Source: Rhodoferax koreense (GTDB taxonomy: Bacteria; Pseudomonadota; Gammaproteobacteria; Burkholderiales; Burkholderiaceae_C). From it: DNA of 64,000 bases. Positions 54,778-64,000 of the stretch are shown in pieces. A program made the position numbers and the translations under genes. The number at the start of each line of letters is the position of its first letter. Within the stretch, counting starts at the first letter, position 1. Below the pieces are notes generated by a model that was not told where the DNA came from, made no database searches, and was given only the letters and a program-made list of their open reading frames with translations. Location: positions 620,001 to 684,000 of the forward strand of contig NZ_CP019236.1 of NCBI RefSeq assembly GCF_001955695.1, written 5' to 3'.

Positions 54778-55863
54778 TCACTTCGCGAGATGTTGAAGGT
54801 CACCAATTGGTATTTTTGCTCGCTCGCGTATGCGAGCCACGCTCTTGCCCTCGCGTCTGGCCCGCTGCAGGTGCGGCTGCCAACGCTTCGGGTCGATCTT
54901 GGGGATGCTGGTCAATACGTACTCCTTCATGGTTGATGAAGCGGAACGTGTCAATGACTTTGCAGCACCTGGCGTCATAAATTTACTACGCAAAGCAGCG
55001 GTGTTTGAACAGAGTTGATCGCCATCCTTAGGTGGTGGGTTGATCCACACCGCAGCAGGCACGGCATGGGTGGATGGCGGTTTGCCTTTGAAGCGTTCTG
55101 GGTGATCCACAAACGCGGCATCAAGAGCGACTTGACGGATCGCGCATACCGTGTCGGCATGCCCGCAATGAACGCTGTGCGGCGTCATGTGTGCGGTGCC
55201 CGAATGGCGATGCACGGTGTTGTACCAAGCGAAGAAAGTCTGGCAGTGGGCGCGTGCGTCCTCGATGCAGCCGAAGCGTGAGGGCAAGTCCGCGCGGTAC
55301 TTCATCGTCTTGAACTGCGACTCGGAGAATGGGTTGTCGTCAGAGACGTGTGGCCTTCTGTGGCTCTTGGCGATGTCCAGGTCGAGCAGGAGTGCGGCCA
55401 CGGGCTTGGAGCGCATGCTGGCGCCACGGTCGGCGTGCAGAGTCAACATGCCGGGCTGCATGTCGTGGCGCGCCACGGTGTCAGCGATCAGTTGCTCGGC
55501 CAACTCTGCGCTTTCGCGCGCGGCGATCAGCCAGCCCACGACGTGGCGGCTGAAGATATCCAGGATCACATACAGATGAAAGCACGTCCACTTGGCTGGC
55601 CCCTTGAGCTTGGTGATGTCCCACGACCAGACCTGGTTGGGTGCCATGGCCAGCAGCTCAGGCTTCATGTAGATCGGGTGCGCAAGTTGGCGGCGCCGCT
55701 CGCGCACGCCACCGTTGACGGCCAGCAACCGGTACATCGTGCGCACCGAGCCGAGATAGACGCCTTCGTCGAGCAGCGTGGCATGTACGGCCGCGGGAGC
55801 GGTGTCGGCAAAGCGCTCGCTGTTCAGCGTGTTCAGCAGCACATGGCGTTCCTGCGCGTCCAT
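54778..55863 (-). pseudogene. IS3-family transposase OrfB, truncated element with foreign C-terminal tail
   Basis: A 361-codon frame. Residues 1-270 are IS3-type OrfB with the complete DDE triad (WSWDITKLKG, LTLHADRGASM, NPFSESQFKTMKY). The normal end near VWINPPP is passed without a stop, and about 80 residues of unrelated sequence (from roughly 55015 down) are added, so the IS end was lost or fused. No orfA precedes it: the upstream DNA is an ABC permease fragment. Both ends are therefore broken and the element is probably immobile. Confidence 0.75.
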
Positions 55864-55864
55864 C

Positions 55865-56161
55865 CTACGTAAGGTGGCGCTCCCACGTGCCCTGCCTTAC
55901 CTGTTCGCTTCTCTGAAGATTGCCATAACGCTAGCCTTCGTGGGCTCCGTGGTGTCTGAGATGGTGGCCAGCAATGCGGGCGTCGGCTACCTACTGCTCA
56001 ACGCGAGCTCGTTTTTCCGAGTTCCACTGGTATTCGCCGCCCTGCTGGTCGTCGCCGTGCTGGGCATCTGCATGTACTGGCTGGCTGATGTGATTGAGAG
56101 CCGGAGTACGGGCTGGGTTCGACGTGGAAACGAGTCCGGGGATATATTCGGCGGAGGTTGA
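55865..56161 (+). pseudogene. ABC transporter permease fragment (TauC/SsuC/ThiX-like C-terminus)
   Basis: The last 98 residues of a BPD-type permease: LRKVALPRALPYLFASLKIAITLAFVGSVVSEMVASNAGVGYLLL carries the EAA loop region and final helices. The N-terminal two thirds are replaced by the IS3 remnant at about 55864. Relatives import taurine, sulfonates or thiamine precursors; no partner ATPase or binding protein remains nearby. Confidence 0.75.
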
Positions 56162-56558
56162 GACGCTGAGACAGTAAAGGATGGGAGTTTTCTGATCAGC
56201 ATTGCTGCTCACCACGCACTTACGCTCGCAGCATGAACCACCTCGGTCTGAACTGCCCTCCAGGAGCTGAACAGTCAAAGTTCAGGGCTCGACCTGCGCG
56301 TGTCAATCGACGCATGCCAATGACTGTTCATCCATCTTCGTGTCCCAAGGTGCGATGGCGTGGTAACCGCTGCTTGCAGGTCCGGGGCGGATGAGCAATC
56401 TCTCGAGACTTCGTGACCAGGCAAGGCGACTCAAAGCCCTCGTCAACGACCTTCGCTCACATTGTCGACAATCGTCAAATTGAATGCTATAGTCATGCGC
56501 CGATCAAAAATTGAGTTTTCAACTCAGTTCATCCGAGTTCTATCAGCCACCAATTCGC
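56162..56558. other. intergenic region before the kinase/phospho-lyase genes
   Basis: No gene is supported in 56162-56460. The right end holds the promoter and operator described separately. The sequence looks like debris left next to the permease fragment. Confidence 0.4.
56461..56493 (+). promoter_or_regulatory. operator A and promoter of the kinase/phospho-lyase genes
   Basis: ATTGTCGACAAT (56461-56472) is a perfect 12-bp palindrome followed by CGTCAA. TCGACA (56465-56470) and TATAGT (56488-56493), 17 bases apart, make a good promoter whose -35 is buried in the operator. The same motif precedes two other genes of this locus, which also encodes a GntR repressor. Confidence 0.7.
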
Positions 56559-57623
56559 ATGCCAAAGATTCCCGAATTCGACTTAAGTCGCATGGCAACT
56601 CCGTTCGTGCCAGTCGCAGAGAGCGAAGCACAGAGCATTGCGAGTCGGATTTACGGCCTGCAAGGTCGGTTGACAAGGTTTGCCACAGAGAAAGACGACA
56701 CGTATCGACTGGACAGCCCCTGCGGCGCGTATGTTTTGAAGCTGGCCAACCCTGCCGACGCGCAGGATGAACTGGACTTTCAAGTCCGACTGCTGGAGCA
56801 TATTGCCAAGGTCTCACCCGATTTGCCCATTCCGCGCATCGTACGGACGTTGACCGGCAAAACACATGCCAGCATCTTGGACCATGCCGGCCAGACACGG
56901 CTTGTTAGGCTCATGTCTTTCGTGGACGGTACGCCGCTGGACGCGTCGTCCGCCAATGGCCATCAGCGCCGCCTCATCGGTGCGATGCTCGCCCGCCTGC
57001 GTCTGGCCACTGAGGGGTTTGTTCATGCCGCGAGCCACCGCTTCATCCCGTGGGATGTCAAGAACATCGAGAGTCTTGAGTTCCTCGTGGCCAACATCGA
57101 TGACGGCTTCCAACGTGGGATGCTGGTCAAGGGCTTGCAGAAACTGGCCCCGCTGCTACCGCGCATCCATGCGCTACGCAAGCAGGTACTGCACAACGAC
57201 TTCAGCAAATCCAACATCGTCGTCGACCCTTCTACGGCGGCGTTCGTCACTGGCATCATCGACTTCGGCGACGCTGTCCACACCGCCATCGCGATCGACG
57301 TCTCCACCGCGCTGCTCAACCAGCTTCCTCGCAATAGCGGAACGCTGCCCAGCCAGGATATGTTCGCCGCGGGGCGCGATGTCCTGCACGGCTACCTTGC
57401 GAATGCGGAACTCCATGCCGAAGAACTCGAACTGATTCCACACTTGGTCATGGCGCGTGTCATCGCACGCGCGTTGCTAAGTATCAGCCTGGCCAAGCAG
57501 TTTCCCGAGAACTCCGCCTATCTGTTGCGCAACACGCTGCAGGGGTGGGCCCAATTGCAGTGGTTTCTCAATCGCAGCCACGAAGAGATTTCCGCGGCCA
57601 TCTTGGTGGCCGATCCCGCCTGA
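56559..57623 (+). CDS. APH-fold small-molecule kinase, hydroxylysine-kinase-like
   Basis: A 354-aa phosphotransferase. Catalytic loop VLHNDFSKSNIVVD (about 208-221) and metal motif GIIDFGDAVHT (about 232-242) are intact; the ATP-binding start is DTYRLDSPCGAYVLKLANP. Its partner downstream is a class III PLP enzyme of the phospho-lyase type, the same pairing as animal hydroxylysine kinase with phosphohydroxylysine phospho-lyase. It may phosphorylate a hydroxylated amine or amino acid to prime ammonia and phosphate elimination. ATG 56559 chosen; a TTG at 56511 is possible. Confidence 0.75.
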   Translation: MPKIPEFDLSRMATPFVPVAESEAQSIASRIYGLQGRLTRFATEKDDTYRLDSPCGAYVLKLANPADAQDELDFQVRLLEHIAKVSPDLPIPRIVRTLTGKTHASILDHAGQTRLVRLMSFVDGTPLDASSANGHQRRLIGAMLARLRLATEGFVHAASHRFIPWDVKNIESLEFLVANIDDGFQRGMLVKGLQKLAPLLPRIHALRKQVLHNDFSKSNIVVDPSTAAFVTGIIDFGDAVHTAIAIDVSTALLNQLPRNSGTLPSQDMFAAGRDVLHGYLANAELHAEELELIPHLVMARVIARALLSISLAKQFPENSAYLLRNTLQGWAQLQWFLNRSHEEISAAILVADPA

Positions 57624-57657
57624 TCTCGAATTTCGCTCCACTGAACCAAGAAAGAAC

Positions 57658-59022
57658 ATGAGCAAGGATCTCGCCCGCACCGCCCCTGGCGGCAAGATGG
57701 TCAACGCCTTCAACCCGGCTACGGCCGAAGGCCTAGCCCATGAGACACGACAGATGATCGACAAGCGCATGCGCCTGCTCGGCCCCGCGTATCGCCTCTT
57801 CTATCAAACACCCGTGCAAGTGGTAAAGGGCAGTGGCGTGCTTCTGTGGGACGCCGAAGGCAACGAGTATCTGGACGCCTACAACAACGTCGTCTCCATC
57901 GGTCATGCACATCCTCGGGTCGCGGCAGCGGTTCACGAGCAGATGCAGACCTTATGCACCCACACGCGTTACCTACAACCCGGTATCCTCAAGTATGCGG
58001 AGCAGCTGCTGGCGACGTTCGGCGGCGCCGTGGGCGTGGCCGGCCATGTCATGTTCACCTGTACCGGCAGCGAAGCCAACGACCTGGCCTTGCGCATTGC
58101 CCTGCACCACACCGGCAAGCGCGGCATCATCGTGACCGAGGAGGCGTATCACGGCAATTCCCATCTAACGGCCGGGTTCTCGCCCTCTCTGGGCATCAGT
58201 TCACCGCTGGGCACCTGGGTGCGGCAGGTGCCGGCGCCGGACTCTTACCGCTTTTCACCCGAAGAACTGGGCCGCAAGATGGCGGCCGACGTACAGGTGC
58301 AAATCGACGACCTGCAACGTCATGGCGATGGGCTGGCGGCCTTCATCGTCGACTCCATGTTCTCCTCCGATGGCGTTTACGGTCATCCGACATCGCTGCT
58401 GGCCCCGGTTGCAGAAGTCGTGCGCAAGGCCGGAGGCCTGTTCATCGCCGACGAAGTGCAGTCCGGCTTCGGCCGCACCGGCGAAAAACTCTGGGGCTTT
58501 CAACGCCACGGCATCGATCCGGACATTGTGACGATGGGCAAACCCATGGGCAATGGTTTCCCGGTCGCGGCCATTGCCGTCAGGTCCGAGGTGGTCGCCG
58601 GCTTTGGCAGTTCGATGCGCTACTTCAACACCTTCGGTGGCAACAACGTCGCCATCGCCGCCGCCCAGGCCACTCTCGACGTCATCCAGGAAGAGGATCT
58701 CGTGAGGAAATCCGGCCGCATTGGTCGCCTGCTGCGCGAGGGCATCGCGCAGTTGGCGTCCCAATTCGAAATCATTGGCGACGTGCGCGGTTCGGGCCTT
58801 TACACGGGCGTCGAGCTGGTCAGCGATCGCGCGCTGAAGACCCCGAATGCCGCCGCGGCGACCGCGGTCGTCAACGGCCTGCGCCAGCGCCGCGTGTTGA
58901 TCTCAGCCACTGGCAACCACGCCAACATCTTGAAGATTCGGCCGCCACTGGTGTTCGGTGAACAGCACGTTGACCGCTTTCTGACCGAACTGGAATACGT
59001 CTTCAGACGTTTGCCAAAATGA
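57658..59022 (+). CDS. class III PLP-dependent enzyme, probable phospho-lyase-type aminotransferase homologue
   Basis: A 454-aa fold type I PLP enzyme. DAYNNVVSIGHAHPRVAAAVHEQMQTLCTHTRYL is the segment seen in ethanolamine-phosphate and 5-phosphohydroxylysine phospho-lyases; TCTGSEANDLALRIAL, FIADEVQSGFGRTG and the PLP-lysine MGKPMGNGFPVAA follow. 34 bases after the kinase gene, so kinase plus lyase form one step pair: phosphorylation, then loss of phosphate and ammonia to give a semialdehyde. A plain aminotransferase role cannot be excluded. Confidence 0.8.
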   Translation: MSKDLARTAPGGKMVNAFNPATAEGLAHETRQMIDKRMRLLGPAYRLFYQTPVQVVKGSGVLLWDAEGNEYLDAYNNVVSIGHAHPRVAAAVHEQMQTLCTHTRYLQPGILKYAEQLLATFGGAVGVAGHVMFTCTGSEANDLALRIALHHTGKRGIIVTEEAYHGNSHLTAGFSPSLGISSPLGTWVRQVPAPDSYRFSPEELGRKMAADVQVQIDDLQRHGDGLAAFIVDSMFSSDGVYGHPTSLLAPVAEVVRKAGGLFIADEVQSGFGRTGEKLWGFQRHGIDPDIVTMGKPMGNGFPVAAIAVRSEVVAGFGSSMRYFNTFGGNNVAIAAAQATLDVIQEEDLVRKSGRIGRLLREGIAQLASQFEIIGDVRGSGLYTGVELVSDRALKTPNAAAATAVVNGLRQRRVLISATGNHANILKIRPPLVFGEQHVDRFLTELEYVFRRLPK

Positions 59023-59072
59023 TGGGCAGCTGCGGCTGGCCGGCCGAACCCCGCCGGGCGCAGCGCCCCGCT

Positions 59073-59756
59073 CTACCGGGTCCCCGCCGCAGCCTTCAGC
59101 CATTCCTCGAGTCGCTTACCTTCACTTTCGTTGTGCGCCATCGCCTCTTCCGCAGCCAGTGCCGGCTTGCCCGCCTGGATGGCTTCGTAGATCGGCTTGT
59201 GCTGCAGGCGAATCGCTTCGGGCGTAATTTCCTCGATCCTGTTGCTTGTATCGATGCAGAGGCGAACCTGCTGCTCGACCAAACGGTACTGGTGGTCCAG
59301 GCGGGAATGCTGTGCCGCTTCGATGATCGCGCGGTGGAACGCGAAATCGCATTTGGAGATCGCATCCATCCTGCCTGCCTTGCAAGCGGCGTCCAGTCGC
59401 AGGTACGCCTGGGTGATTTTCGTGCGCAGCTTTTCGTTTCGGCATTGGGCTGCGAGGCGCGCAGCGAGCCCTTCCAGGCTTCCGCGCAAGGTCCAGACTT
59501 CCCAGACGTCCTGCGCCGACAATTCGGCGATCTGCCAACCGGTGTAAGGAATTTGCACCAGGATGCCTTCACTGGCCAGCTTGTGCAGGCCCGTGCGAAG
59601 CGTCGCGCGCGCAACACCCAACTGCTCCGAGAGCGCGATCTCCGTCACGCGCGAGCCCGGTTTCACCGCGCCGGACAGGATGAAGTCTCGCAGGTTAGCC
59701 TCGACTTGCGCCTCTGCAGACAGCTTGAAGATCGGACGGACTTGCGCAACGCTCAT
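59073..59756 (-). CDS. GntR-family (FCD domain) repressor of the locus
   Basis: A 227-aa regulator: winged helix (LRDFILSGAVKPGSRVTEIALSEQLGVARATLRTGLHKL) and FadR-type C-terminal domain (VWEVWTLRGSLEGLAARLAA, CDFAFHRAIIEAAQHSRL) with the His/Asp metal-ligand pattern. It sits between the two halves of the locus, facing back towards the phospho-lyase gene. ATTGTYRRCAAT palindromes before three units are of the TTGT-n-ACAA type bound by this family. Confidence 0.88.
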   Translation of the reverse strand: MSVAQVRPIFKLSAEAQVEANLRDFILSGAVKPGSRVTEIALSEQLGVARATLRTGLHKLASEGILVQIPYTGWQIAELSAQDVWEVWTLRGSLEGLAARLAAQCRNEKLRTKITQAYLRLDAACKAGRMDAISKCDFAFHRAIIEAAQHSRLDHQYRLVEQQVRLCIDTSNRIEEITPEAIRLQHKPIYEAIQAGKPALAAEEAMAHNESEGKRLEEWLKAAAGTR

Positions 59757-59852
59757 AGTTCAATACACCTGAAATTGTTCGAAGAAACTTAGCCGAGGGG
59801 CTCGTGGCAAACCTGCCTGACCGCGCGAGCAACTATGGCTACCCATCCTATT

Positions 59853-59870
59853 ATTGTCAGCAATCGTCAA
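59853..59870 (+). promoter_or_regulatory. operator B before the amidohydrolase gene
   Basis: ATTGTCAGCAATCGTCAA, 24-41 bases before the M20 hydrolase ATG. It shares 15 of 18 positions or more with sites A and C; TTGTCA inside it could be the -35, with TTTAAT (59876-59881) as -10. Confidence 0.65.
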
Positions 59871-59893
59871 TCATATTTAATCAGGGGCATTCC

Positions 59894-61159
59894 ATGTCGA
59901 CAACCGAGCATGCCGCGCTTCACATCGATGAAGATCGCTTCCTCAACGAACTCCGGACACTGGGCGCCATCGGCACCGACACCGAAAAGGGTGGCCGAAC
60001 CCGGCTGGCCCTGACAGACGCGGAAAGGCAGGGGCGCGATTTCGTCAAGGGATTGATGACTGATCTGGGCATGCGTGTGCAAGTAGACCAGATCGGCAAT
60101 CTCATAGGCACCCTTTCCTCCAAGGACGATTCGAAGCCCCATCTGATGATGGGTTCGCACATCGACACTGTGCGCAATGCAGGTGCACTCGATGGTTGCT
60201 ACGGCGTTCTCGGCGGTTTGGCCGTGTGCCGGGCCTACCAAGATGCGGGCATCTTGCCTGAGCGGCCAATCACGGTGATCGCTTTCACCGGTGAAGAAGG
60301 GGTTCGTTACCACCCCGACATGCTTGGCTCGCTGGTTTATGCCGGCGGAATGTCGTTGGAAGAAGGTCTGGCTAGCCATGGCATCGATGGCACCGTGTTG
60401 GGCGATGAACTCCGGCGCATCGGTTACGACGGCACGGCGCCCGTGGGCACCATCGTCCCGGCCGAGTACATCGAACTGCACATCGAGCAAGGCCCAGTGC
60501 TCGAAGCCGAGGGCCTGACCATCGGCGCCGTCTTCGGCGTCCAGGGCATCTCCTGGCAACGCATCACCATCAACGGAACAGCGAATCATGCTGGCACGAC
60601 TCCGACGCGGCTGCGCCGCGATGCGGGCCTGGCGGCAGCCAAGGTCATCGCCTTCATGCGTAAGGAGATCGCCGACAACTCGGGAGGCACCACCATCGCA
60701 GCCACCGGAAGCATCGCCTTCGAACCCAACCTGGTCAACGTCATCCCGCGCAAGGCCATCTTCACGGCGGACATCCGCGACCCGGACGAAACGAAACTCC
60801 AGGAGGCCGAAAAGAAGCTTCTGGCGTTTCTCGAGCAACTGCGCGAAACGGACGGCATCGAGTTCAGCACCGAGTCGCTCGCCCGCTTCGAGCCGGTCAA
60901 GTTCGACGAGCCCATCGTCAGCCTGGTGGCGCAGACGGCACAGGAGCTCGGGCTGCCCGCCATGCGCATGGTTTCGGGTGCCGGTCATGACGCGCAGATG
61001 ATCGCCCGCATCGCGCCGGCCGCAATGATCTTCGTGCCCAGTGCCGGAGGCGTCAGCCACAACCCGCGGGAACACACCGACGATCAAGACCTCATTCACG
61101 GGCTTCGCGTGCTGCTGCGCGTGGTGCAACGCCGACTGGAGAGTCCCTCATGCGAGTGA
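59894..61159 (+). CDS. M20-family Zn-dependent amidohydrolase (N-carbamoyl-amino-acid hydrolase/hydantoinase type)
   Basis: A 421-aa bimetal enzyme. Metal residues stand in GSHIDTVRNAGALDGCYGVL and FTGEEGVRYHPDMLGS; HIEQGPVLE and AGHDAQMIARI complete the carbamoylase/allantoate-amidase pattern. It would split an N-carbamoyl, ureido or amide bond. AGGGG lies 7 bases before ATG 59894. The next gene overlaps it by 10 bases. Confidence 0.87.
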   Translation: MSTTEHAALHIDEDRFLNELRTLGAIGTDTEKGGRTRLALTDAERQGRDFVKGLMTDLGMRVQVDQIGNLIGTLSSKDDSKPHLMMGSHIDTVRNAGALDGCYGVLGGLAVCRAYQDAGILPERPITVIAFTGEEGVRYHPDMLGSLVYAGGMSLEEGLASHGIDGTVLGDELRRIGYDGTAPVGTIVPAEYIELHIEQGPVLEAEGLTIGAVFGVQGISWQRITINGTANHAGTTPTRLRRDAGLAAAKVIAFMRKEIADNSGGTTIAATGSIAFEPNLVNVIPRKAIFTADIRDPDETKLQEAEKKLLAFLEQLRETDGIEFSTESLARFEPVKFDEPIVSLVAQTAQELGLPAMRMVSGAGHDAQMIARIAPAAMIFVPSAGGVSHNPREHTDDQDLIHGLRVLLRVVQRRLESPSCE

Positions 61160-62073
61160 TCTGCGCGTTCGCGCCGCATGACCCGCGTGCCAAAGTATGG
61201 CGAGAGCGGCTCGGAGCACTGCTGCCGGATTTCGAGGTCATCGACTGGCAGCCCGACGGTCCTGCGGGCGACTACCTTGTCCTCTGGAATCCAGATCAAC
61301 GAATCATCGACTCCCAACCTGATCTGCGCGCCATCTTCAACGGCGGTTCCGGTGTCGACCGCATTCGTGCACTGCGGATCCCTGCCGGCCTACCGATCGT
61401 CCGCTTGGAGGATGCGGGCATGAGCGAGCAAATGGCCGACTACGTGACACACGAACTGCTCCACTACTTCCGGGAATTCGATCACTGCGAGGATTTGCAG
61501 CATGCGCGCAAGTGGCTGCCCTTCCCGCCCCGCGAGAAGTCCGATTTTCCCGTTGGCATTCTAGGCTTCGGCACCCTCGGATCGGTCGTCGCTGAGCGCG
61601 TGAGGATGCTCGGGTTTCCGGTGCACGCCTGGGCTCGAAGTGCCCGCGGTGGCAATGTGCAGGTCTTCGTCGGCGCTGAAGGCCTCAGGGAATTTGCGGC
61701 AGCCACCCGAGTGCTGATTTGTCTCGTTCCGCTGACGGAGGAAACTCAGCACATTCTGAATGCGCGACTGTTCAGCCAAATGCCGCGGAACTCCTACGTG
61801 ATCAATATCGCACGCGGTGGTCACCTTGACGAAGAGGCACTCATTCCTGCGCTCGACTGCGGCCAACTGGCCGGGGCAACAGTGGACGTACTGAACACCG
61901 AGCCCGCCAGTGCCGATCACCCATTCTGGACTCACCCGAGAGTGCGCATCACGCCGCACGTGTCGGCCACACCCATCGACTCGATTGCAACCCAGCAGAT
62001 TGCGTCCAAGATCAAAGCGCACGCCACAGGTGCACCAATCACAGGCATCATCGATCCCAAGCTAGGGTATTGA
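61150..62073 (+). CDS. D-2-hydroxyacid dehydrogenase, GhrA-like glyoxylate/hydroxypyruvate reductase
   Basis: A 307-aa NAD(P)H reductase. Rossmann motif ILGFGTLGSVVAERVRMLGFPVHAWARSA, the INIARGGHLDEEALIPAL segment with catalytic Arg, and ITPHVSATP with the catalytic His. The N-terminal part (YVTHELLHYFREFDHCE) is that of GhrA. It could reduce a 2-oxo acid from the pathway. Coupled to the amidohydrolase gene by a 10-base overlap. Confidence 0.87.
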   Translation: MRVICAFAPHDPRAKVWRERLGALLPDFEVIDWQPDGPAGDYLVLWNPDQRIIDSQPDLRAIFNGGSGVDRIRALRIPAGLPIVRLEDAGMSEQMADYVTHELLHYFREFDHCEDLQHARKWLPFPPREKSDFPVGILGFGTLGSVVAERVRMLGFPVHAWARSARGGNVQVFVGAEGLREFAAATRVLICLVPLTEETQHILNARLFSQMPRNSYVINIARGGHLDEEALIPALDCGQLAGATVDVLNTEPASADHPFWTHPRVRITPHVSATPIDSIATQQIASKIKAHATGAPITGIIDPKLGY

Positions 62074-62200
62074 ATCAATAGAGGGCATTTTCGGCGCCGT
62101 ACACCTTAGGTTTTCTGGCACACGTTGTGCTACTTCATCGAGGCAAGTAGGTTTGGCTCTACACAGGGGTTCAACTGCTTGCTTTATTTTCCCCGATACT

Positions 62201-62217
62201 ATTGTTGACAATCGACA
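62201..62217 (+). promoter_or_regulatory. operator C before the first tctC gene
   Basis: ATTGTTGACAATCGACA contains an exact TTGACA (62205-62210) and matches operators A and B. It lies 58-74 bases before the tctC ATG, in a low-GC patch. Confidence 0.65.
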
Positions 62218-62274
62218 TTAAGGAGGGGCTTGGGCACGGTGTGCCTATGAAGTAGTACCAGTACAGGAGTGTTC

Positions 62275-63231
62275 ATGAAGCGTCGATTCTTTCTGTCCGC
62301 CGCCGCAAGCACGGGACTCGGCATGGCCTCGCTGCGGGCTATGGCCCAAGGCAATGTCTCTCGGCTCGTCGTAGGCTTTCCACCCGGCGGCGTTGCCGAT
62401 GCGGTCGCTCGCCTCACCGCCGAACGATTCGGGCCTAGCCTCGGCACGAGCTTCATCGTCGAGAACAAGCCTGGCGCTTCGACAAGCCTAGCCGCCGCTT
62501 ACGTCAAGCGGGCGAGCCAGGACGGCACCACCCTGCTGTTCGCGCCCTCGACCTCGCTGACGCTGCTCGCCCTGACCAAACGCAAGCTGCCCTACGACCC
62601 CGAGAAGGATTTCGCGCCGGTGGCACGCCTTGCCGTGGTACCCAACGCGATTGCTGTACGTAGCGACTCACCTTACAAGTCACTCGGCGAGTACGTGGCC
62701 GCTATCAAGGCGGCCAAGATCAGCCCCATGGTGGGAGTCGCGGCGCTCGGTGGCGCCTCCCATATCGCTTTGGCCGGTCTGAGTAAGGAGTTGGGCGTTC
62801 GCTTCGAGGCCGTCCCCTACCAAGGCGGCGCGCCCATGACGTCGGACTTGCTGGGCGGCCACATCCCGGCCGCCTCCGACGCGAGCCTGGTAGCCATGCA
62901 CAAGGCCGGCAAAGTTCGCATGCTGGCGGTGTCGACGACCCAACGTTTCCCGTTAACCCCAGATGTACCGACGTTCGAAGAGTTGGGCCTGCAATCGTTC
63001 AGGTCCTTCTGGTACGGCATCTGGGCGCCGGCTGGCACCCCTGCGAATGCGATCAAGCCACTAGAGGTGGCGGCGAGCAAGATGATCGGCGATCCGGACA
63101 TCGGTCGGCGCTTGCTGGAACTGGGCGTTGTTCCCAGCCTTCTGGTCGGCCAGGACTTCGGCCGCGCCACAGCCGCCGAACGCGATGTGCTACGTCCTAT
63201 CGTCGTCGCCTCCGGCTACATGGAGGACTGA
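62275..63231 (+). CDS. TctC/Bug-family periplasmic binding protein, Tat-like signal
   Basis: A 318-aa tripartite tricarboxylate transporter receptor. The signal begins KRRFFLSAAASTGLGMASL, a twin-arginine-like motif. VVGFPPGGVADAVARLTAE and ENKPGASTSLAAAYVKRA form the ligand loops; the VAPLHYKGGxP-type phrase is VPYQGGAPMTSDLLGGHI. ATG 62275 follows AGGAG by 5 bases. No tctA or tctB membrane genes are in the window. Confidence 0.9.
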   Translation: MKRRFFLSAAASTGLGMASLRAMAQGNVSRLVVGFPPGGVADAVARLTAERFGPSLGTSFIVENKPGASTSLAAAYVKRASQDGTTLLFAPSTSLTLLALTKRKLPYDPEKDFAPVARLAVVPNAIAVRSDSPYKSLGEYVAAIKAAKISPMVGVAALGGASHIALAGLSKELGVRFEAVPYQGGAPMTSDLLGGHIPAASDASLVAMHKAGKVRMLAVSTTQRFPLTPDVPTFEELGLQSFRSFWYGIWAPAGTPANAIKPLEVAASKMIGDPDIGRRLLELGVVPSLLVGQDFGRATAAERDVLRPIVVASGYMED

Positions 63232-63234
63232 GCC

Positions 63235-64000
63235 ATGCCAACCCTCTCCTTGCTCCGGGCCGCGGTCTGTGCACTCTTCGCAGCCGTGGCATCCGCCGCC
63301 GTCGTGGCAGATAACTATCCAACACGTCCCATTCGAGTAATCGTTCCTTACTCGGCAGGTGGCTCCACCGATGTGCCTGTGCGTGCCGTCGCAGCCGAGA
63401 TCGGCAAAGCGCTTGGTCAAGGCATGGTCATCGACAACCGACCCGGCATGGGCGCGATGATCGGTGCGGAAGCCGCTGCCAAGGCCGCACCAGATGGCTA
63501 CACCTTGCTCGCGGTGTCAAACCCTCAAACCATCAGTGGGTCACTCTACAAGCTCAGTTTCGACCCGGTGGAAGCTTTCGTTCCCGTGGCCCTCATCACG
63601 CGAGAGCCTTGCGTGGTGGTCGTCAATCCCGAATTGCCAGTCAAGACCTTCAAGGAGTTCGTCGAATACGTCAAGGCCCGGCCCGGCACGCTGAACTTCG
63701 GATCTTCCGGCAACGGGTCGAATCAGCATCTCTTCGCCGCACACCTGCTGCAGTCCACTCGTCTCGACATGGTGCATGTGCCTTACAAAGGGGCTGCTCC
63801 TGCAGTCGCCGACCTGATGGGCGGCCAAGTGTCAATGATGATGCCCGGGCAGGCCGCCATGATTCCCCTCATCAAGAGCGGAAAGCTCAGGGTGCTGGCC
63901 GTCACCAGCGGATCCCGTTCGTCCGCGCTGCCCGACGTTCCCACGCTCGCGGAATTAGGCTATCCCGAACAGAACGCCTACGTATGGACCGGTCTGGTCG
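63235..64000 (+). CDS. second TctC/Bug-family binding protein (runs off the window)
   Basis: 255 codons are present. A Sec signal (SLLRAAVCALFAAVASAAVVA) is followed by the Bug core: IRVIVPYSAGGSTDVPVRAVAAEIGKALGQ, IDNRPGMGAMIGAEAAA, and HVPYKGAAPAVADLMGGQV. The ATG lies 4 bases after the previous tctC stop, with GAGGACTGA before it. It differs clearly from its neighbour, so it is not a recent duplicate; the pair may bind different ligands. Confidence 0.9.
   Translation, partial: MPTLSLLRAAVCALFAAVASAAVVADNYPTRPIRVIVPYSAGGSTDVPVRAVAAEIGKALGQGMVIDNRPGMGAMIGAEAAAKAAPDGYTLLAVSNPQTISGSLYKLSFDPVEAFVPVALITREPCVVVVNPELPVKTFKEFVEYVKARPGTLNFGSSGNGSNQHLFAAHLLQSTRLDMVHVPYKGAAPAVADLMGGQVSMMMPGQAAMIPLIKSGKLRVLAVTSGSRSSALPDVPTLAELGYPEQNAYVWTGLV

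Follow-up and report, generated by a model that had tools for sequence, protein, structure and literature searches.

What would a bacterium degrade with a small-molecule kinase, a pyridoxal phosphate (PLP) enzyme, an M20-family hydrolase and a hydroxyacid dehydrogenase, apparently under one regulator? The question is raised by a locus of Rhodoferax koreense at the end of the stretch analyzed here, 64,000 nucleotides of contig NZ_CP019236.1 (positions 620,001 to 684,000), which we call the window; coordinates follow its numbering unless a locus label (L011 and the like) precedes them. A preliminary description had listed an APH-fold kinase, a class III PLP enzyme, a GntR regulator, an M20 hydrolase, a GhrA-like dehydrogenase and two TctC-type binding proteins, and all of these are open frames with the domains named. 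The locus is, in our opinion, fairly probably a catabolic regulon under GntR control, directed at a 1,2-hydroxyamine masked by an amide or ureido group, which would be unmasked, phosphorylated and subjected to elimination.

The kinase and phospho-lyase pair

The PLP enzyme (57658-59022, plus strand; Aminotran_3 domain) is most similar, among solved structures, to the phospholyase 5g4i (377 bits), which we take to be the Arthrobacter phospholyase A1RDF1, and to ETNPPL (6tor, 324 bits); the next solved structures reach at most 180 bits. The window lyase has twelve signature positions, including N76, N77, N141, P296, M297 and N324, in common with both 5g4i and 6tor and with 95% or more of relatives. 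None of these residues recurs in the genome's six other class III homologues, which are presumed to be transaminases and have alignment gaps at several of the positions. The scores and residues bear out the phospho-lyase type proposed in the preliminary description, and placement of the enzyme in this family is well supported. The placement relies on these two lines of evidence because the outgroup of the tree is saturated: outgroup branch lengths are 10, and one class III homologue (L006) lies near 6tor through long-branch attraction. Relatives on plasmids are annotated as "aspartate aminotransferase family protein".

The kinase gene directly upstream (56559-57623, plus strand; Pfam APH, 8e-26) encodes, in frame, the motifs HNDFSKSN (HxDxxxxN) and IDFGD. 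An alternative TTG start at 56511 is also open, and a database entry of 354 amino acids fits the start at 56559. Some near relatives, among the 120 of 761 matches listed, carry the name hydroxylysine kinase (HYKK) in UniRef or JGI. The fold and motifs are those expected of a HYKK-like kinase, and the database names make a particular closeness to HYKK possible.

The 80 relatives referred to below are the best 80 of 585 confirmed lyase stretches, taken with flanks of up to 10 kb. In 67 of the 80, an APH kinase match on the same strand precedes the lyase match by 3-221 bp, and three further relatives outside the 80 also have an APH kinase upstream. The APH match lies elsewhere or is partial in L061, L068 and L098; no APH kinase was found in five mycobacterial loci (L081, L083, L087, L093, L099) or in the 5-kb contig L086, and the 7.6-kb contig L043 has no kinase, the gene upstream of its lyase coding for a Big_12 protein. 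Genes of relatives were called by GC-frame choice, which missed or mis-started some of them and gave no lyase in L047, L075, L083, L087, L088, L096, L099 and L100; choice by length of the open reading frame and support in relatives was dropped, as it produced antisense calls in GC-rich loci. The NCBIfam fusion models PRK06148 and PRK06149 are matched at one end by the kinase and at the other by the lyase, although in the window these are separate genes without the middle part of about 240 residues, presumably an M23 peptidase. On the sequence evidence, the predicted kinase/phospho-lyase class of chemistry is well supported.

A second, distant kinase-lyase pair is present in the same genome (L012:10544-13781, that is, G000:C1:5282543-5285780), with 52-53% identity for the lyase and 32-33% for the kinase. 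Around it lie HAD-type genes together with a GhrA-like gene, a further class III enzyme and an M20 enzyme of the DoeB2/hippurase type. A kinase-lyase pair is also carried by an Escherichia coli plasmid of the IncFIB type that came from a human swab (L126:1-8326), along with genes for an annotated succinate semialdehyde dehydrogenase, an ABC transporter and GntR; Klebsiella and Rahnella plasmids also carry kinase relatives.

A shared operator

The pattern ATTGTYRRCAATCGWCAWT, with up to three mismatches allowed, matches the window at three places only, all on the plus strand: before the kinase-lyase unit (56461-56479), between the divergent GntR and M20-GhrA units (59853-59871) and before the TctC unit (62201-62219). 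The chance expectation is a mean of 0.10 matches in the window, and none of 100 shuffles gave three or more. Exact copies of the operator core, ATTGTNNNCAATCGNCA, number three in the 5.9-Mb genome, all of them at the present locus and one before each transcription unit; one mismatch adds four places elsewhere, and the backwards control gave none. The shuffled, genome-wide and backwards controls rule out a chance origin of these operators. Because each of the three units has the core, and no exact copy exists elsewhere in the genome, the prediction that these units form one regulon is well supported, and the three operators noted in the preliminary description are exact and specific.

The region 56300-62400 contains only two promoter-like sites, a number no higher than chance, and it is our own observation that both have their -35 box inside an operator: the site before the kinase (56465-56493) overlaps the first operator, and the minus-strand site before gntR (59860-59832) overlaps the second. 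This overlap fits a repressor that also controls its own gene, and the GntR/FCD regulator (59073-59756, minus strand; domain match) would accordingly repress the locus. Its score against the phosphonate regulator model phnR_burk (TIGR03338) is 69.6, below the cut-off of 271.5, and GntR homologs above 120 bits are present in seven relatives.

Across 88 loci (1.69 Mb), sites of the form (A/G)TTGTC(G/A)NCAAT or ATTGTTGACAAT, a pattern broadened once the first matches had been seen, number 28 and fall in 13 loci; the backwards pattern has none. Most of them (24 of 28, or 25 if one within a called 2-hydroxyacid dehydrogenase frame of L040 is counted) lie about -120 to 350 bp from the called start of a kinase, gntR, transporter, amidase, GGT-like or similar pathway gene, the others being L031:149 and two sites in L074. 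Letter-permuted palindromes (n = 200) gave a mean of 0.9 sites; one reached 27, most likely because permuting letters can regenerate the motif itself, and none reached 28. The 12 loci with sites at pathway genes, the window's included, all belong to the 28-row lyase clade of the window enzyme, with the exception of L039. The sites of L040 mark four units: a dehydrogenase (start uncertain), GGT-like/gntR, kinase-lyase and MFS/Amidohydro_3.

A second type of kinase

Four relatives without the APH kinase, in Pseudomonas fluorescens P5A (L031), Ottowia thiooxydans (L033), Lichenibacterium (L047) and Rhizobium rhizogenes K84 (L110), each encode a protein of the glycerate-2-kinase type (DUF4147 and MOFRL domains), which scores below the curated glycerate-2-kinase cut-offs. 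Its gene immediately precedes the lyase in L047 and L110; in L031 the two are divergent, and in L033 it is the first gene of the presumed operon. The same type of operator is found nearby; it starts 53 bp upstream of the MOFRL gene in K84 and, in the window, 50 bp upstream of the kinase's first open start. The two kinases are mutually exclusive, the APH kinase being present in none of the four MOFRL loci versus 75 of 82 others (Fisher p = 1.6e-4; the table omits the window's locus and L012, and a weak MOFRL match of 59 bits in L068 was left out of the count). The four MOFRL loci are not a single group: within the 28-row clade of the window enzyme, the MOFRL label changes three times, although two losses after one gain would also account for this, and a single change is seen in 0% of 200 bootstrap trees.

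In Ottowia the presumed operon (L033:713-11326) consists of the MOFRL gene, an NMT1-type ABC transporter, HyuA, HyuB, a TIM-barrel protein, Rid and the lyase, so that the whole pathway appears to be held in a single operon under a single operator. Its genes have counterparts in two Paracoccus loci and Bradyrhizobium neotropicale (HyuA 56-57%, HyuB 66-67%, TIM-barrel protein 54-58%, NMT1 receptor 60-62%), which, unlike Ottowia, have the APH kinase. Mutual exclusion, the same placement of the operator and the operon genes common to Ottowia and the APH loci make it very likely that the two kinases are equivalent in the pathway. That a second type of kinase replaces the APH kinase in some relatives is new here and can be read directly from their genes. 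If the two are equivalent, a hydroxy-acid-like substrate is likelier than ethanolamine.

Next to the MOFRL-lyase pair, both L110 and L047 have a sugar ABC transporter and a GH5 glycosidase gene (L110:11326-13311, L047:2034-4016). The two glycosidase genes are 74% identical, and that of L110 weakly resembles endoglycoceramidase, at 68 bits where the cut-off is 700.

Amine-freeing hydrolases

The M20 hydrolase (59894-61159, plus strand) scores 381.8 bits against TIGR01879, above the cut-off of 204. The M20 hydantoinase/carbamoylase family includes amide hydrolases as well. The neighborhoods of relatives of the window M20 at 47-62% identity were read in 22 loci: 4 taken from the 63 plasmid records that gave a match, and 18 genome loci with 1.5-kb flanks. 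In 18 of the 22, a diaminopropionate ammonia-lyase gene (identified by annotation in the four plasmids and by 49-80% similarity elsewhere) adjoins the M20 gene or lies one gene away, and at 53% identity or more the proportion is 16 of 17; the loci without this neighbor are L135, L150, L151 and L152. The "Zn-dependent hydrolase" subgroup of M20 proteins found beside the ammonia-lyase (L136:7001-9539, L132-L134, L137-L149 and L153) includes a copy on a legume-symbiont plasmid. It is possible that this subgroup hydrolyses N-carbamoyl- or N-acyl-diaminopropionate; an M20 enzyme of this kind would probably release the 3-amino group of a three-carbon diamino acid.

No diaminopropionate ammonia-lyase is present at the window's locus, candidates elsewhere in the genome reaching at best 56% and 43%. 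Replacement of the ammonia-lyase at the locus by a dehydrogenase, a kinase and a phospho-lyase suggests a hydroxy analogue as the substrate, with the skeleton of isoserine. Rid-family genes were found in 3 of the 88 loci, by seeds taken from those three, and not at the window's locus. In Ottowia the Rid gene overlaps the start of the lyase gene; in P. fluorescens P5A it is separated from the lyase by two gene positions, and in Variovorax (L030) it lies some 3 kb downstream. 3-Aminoacrylate is described as a substrate of the Rid protein RutC (PMC8113886). From these C3 clues we tentatively favor an isoserine skeleton over hydroxylysine or ethanolamine.

The exact gene set of the window isn't conserved in relatives, where transporters and C-N hydrolases vary. 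Matches to the window type of M20 among the 80 are limited to L105 and the plasmid L115, at 35-37%. M20 enzymes within 10 kb of the pair are found in Tardiphaga (L034, L038), a member of the Hyphomicrobiales (L041), Microvirga (L105) and Chelatococcus (L115). Over the same distance, an amidase accompanies a C69-type peptidase in Thioclava and Pseudooceanicola (L042); other Thioclava loci, L045, L046, L048 and L037 have an amidase; L039 and L040 have a GGT-like gene; and L033, L050, L056, L112 and L114 have HyuAB. PxpBC-like carboxyltransferase domains lie near the pair in L088 and, as read from gene sizes, in L106. In marine-type Rhodobacterales (L055, 7955-8926; L060, L062, L063), an arginase-family gene stands directly before the pair, and a guanidino-masked hydroxyamine (for example, hydroxyarginine-like) is conceivable as the substrate there. 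Thus, the idea of a carbamoylase-type route for an amide-linked hydroxyamine gains from the repeated joining of the pair to amine-freeing enzymes, although the substrate clues point away from the hydroxylysine and ethanolamine initially considered.

Remaining genes and distribution of the locus

The dehydrogenase gene (61150-62073, plus strand; 2-Hacid_dh_C, 3e-44) overlaps the M20 gene, and its product scores 248.6 against the GhrA model NF012013, below the cut-off of 403, so that it is called GhrA-like only. The two TctC-type periplasmic receptors, assigned by domain match, are encoded at 62269-63231 and from 63235 past the window's end at 64000 (both plus strand), the second gene ending at L011:8207. 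Beyond the window, 59 bp further on, lies a gene absent from the earlier list (L011:8267-9856); at 320.4 against TIGR00066, below the cut-off of 357.85, its product is GGT-like only.

Transposase-like frames, named by reading of the sequence, flank the locus at 54778-55863 and L011:9997-10770. By the same reading, a minus-strand transposase-like frame within 54778-56161 overlaps the start of a plus-strand frame that resembles the end of an ABC permease; an upstream transporter may have been lost from the locus. A lyase match at E 1e-100 or better occurs in 17 of 399 genomes drawn from the order, the present genome included; one other genome has a copy at 70%, and the remaining copies, the present genome's second among them, are at 47-55%. 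The locus was thus probably acquired and is probably accessory.

Proposed pathway and alternatives

In the route that we propose, the TctC receptors would take part in uptake, and the M20 hydrolase, perhaps with the GGT-like enzyme, would release a primary amine. The APH kinase would then phosphorylate the hydroxyl next to the amine, and the PLP lyase would bind the amine and eliminate phosphate to give an enamine, which would lose ammonia to yield an aldehyde or semialdehyde; the GhrA-like enzyme may act on a 2-hydroxy or 2-oxo acid of the same pathway. That all units form one linear pathway is likely; we infer the order of steps, the products and the substrate. The outcomes that the preliminary description had named as speaking against its proposal (a PLP enzyme grouping with transaminases, a kinase unrelated to HYKK, relatives with no conserved neighborhood) were not encountered outright.

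A more specific version, which we offer tentatively and regard as possible rather than probable, has a masked isoserine such as 3-ureido-2-hydroxypropanoate, the hydroxy analogue of 3-ureidoalanine, as the compound degraded, and the same core, with two unrelated kinases, serving variously masked amines across the Proteobacteria. The M20 enzyme would free isoserine, and the kinase would form O-phosphoisoserine. The lyase, with the substrate bound via its 3-amine, would eliminate phosphate to give 3-aminoacrylate, which would decay to malonate semialdehyde and ammonia; across the Proteobacteria, the masks would be amide, ureido, guanidino, gamma-glutamyl or lactam groups.

Several observations weigh against the proposed regulon for a masked hydroxyamine. 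Within flanks of up to 10 kb, none of the 80 relatives has an M20 gene of the window type, a GhrA-like gene and the pair together. L047 and L110 have the GH5 glycosidase and sugar transporters instead of an amide hydrolase, which is a misfit with an amide mask, and L045, L046 and two Thioclava loci contain a further class III enzyme. Kinase and lyase score well below the whole-length cut-offs of the PRK06148 and PRK06149 fusion models. C-N hydrolases are more frequent among operon-like neighbors (13 of 134 versus 16 of 832 other genes, p = 4e-5), but the enrichment is soft, as seeds were chosen after looking and several loci are near-copies; an unseeded Pfam count (M20 7 of 134 versus at most 2 of 134) goes in the same direction and is not significant alone. 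The regulon includes no aldehyde dehydrogenase gene, and no search was made for one that would complete the route. Finally, the activities of all the proteins of the locus are predictions.

It is also possible, though on balance unlikely, that the same chemistry serves a familiar substrate, either 5-hydroxylysine, which would yield aminoadipate semialdehyde, or an amino alcohol (ethanolamine or 1-amino-2-propanol, for example). Degradation of amino alcohols by such chemistry has long been described for Erwinia and Pseudomonas, and Erwinia, Pantoea and Brenneria hold kinase relatives at 50-54% among the matches listed. The reported activity of 5g4i on phosphoethanolamine points the same way, as do the hydroxylysine kinase names of some near relatives, but these names arise by annotation transfer. 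Moreover, a glycerate-2-kinase-type enzyme replaces the kinase within the same clade, the M20 subgroup accompanies diaminopropionate ammonia-lyase, and the regulon includes a 2-hydroxyacid dehydrogenase, all of which argue against these substrates. The association of 18 of the 22 M20 relatives with diaminopropionate ammonia-lyase can also be taken to mean that the units are co-regulated without forming a linear route: kinase-lyase and M20-GhrA would degrade different compounds of the same source, with the TctC receptors serving both. This is consistent with the separate occurrence of the M20 type and the pair, no lyase relative among the 80 having the window type of M20 above 37%; the same operator at all three units, and the genes for M20-family or other amine-freeing enzymes that accompany the pair in other loci, make it improbable in our view. 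That the PLP enzyme is an ordinary omega-transaminase, beside which an antibiotic- or sugar-type kinase lies by chance, is very unlikely: pipelines do give plasmid-borne relatives an aminotransferase name, and the phospho-lyase activity is a prediction, but the scores against solved relatives, the signature residues and the kinase directly upstream in most relatives all speak against it.

Relation to known systems

Pairs of kinase and phospho-lyase degrade hydroxylated amines in animals by phosphorylation and elimination, and it is from animals that this chemistry is best known. The proposed regulon shares the logic of a kinase with a class III PLP enzyme with the animal hydroxylysine kinase/5-phosphohydroxylysine phospho-lyase and with ETNPPL, whose structure 6tor is the second-best solved relative of the window lyase, the closest being the Arthrobacter phospholyase. 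Unlike the animal systems, the bacterial locus also has uptake receptors, a hydrolase that would free the amine, and a 2-hydroxyacid dehydrogenase, together with a GntR switch, and some of its relatives swap in the MOFRL kinase. The clusters of diaminopropionate ammonia-lyase with M20 hold the closest relatives of the window M20; in contrast to them, the window's locus has a kinase, a phospho-lyase and a 2-hydroxyacid dehydrogenase and no ammonia-lyase.

A Herbaspirillum operon is given as HAD, "hydroxylysine kinase", "4-aminobutyrate aminotransferase" and Lrp (PMC13275390). By these names it holds a kinase-lyase pair, and by its description it resembles the second pair of the present genome, L012, with its HAD-type genes. 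The Rut pathway of E. coli proceeds by ureido hydrolysis to 3-aminoacrylate, which a Rid protein deaminates to malonate semialdehyde (PMC8113886); it shares this intermediate with the isoserine version but is described there without a kinase or PLP lyase. The lyase PbfA is reported to be inactive on ethanolamine and isoserine (PMC8154272). Among the matches listed from the open-licence PubMed Central literature, we found no characterized bacterial kinase/phospho-lyase pathway with such a gene set and no isoserine pathway; the preliminary description likewise knew of no described pathway with this set.

Relatives of the bacterial phospho-lyase carry aminotransferase names, and viewing them as parts of a regulon could correct many gene names, including those of the rhizobial and enterobacterial plasmid copies. 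One operator, an exchangeable kinase and changing hydrolases define a concrete and testable class of substrates, and the comparison with relatives, among which parts are interchangeable, hints at a substrate that has yet to be described.

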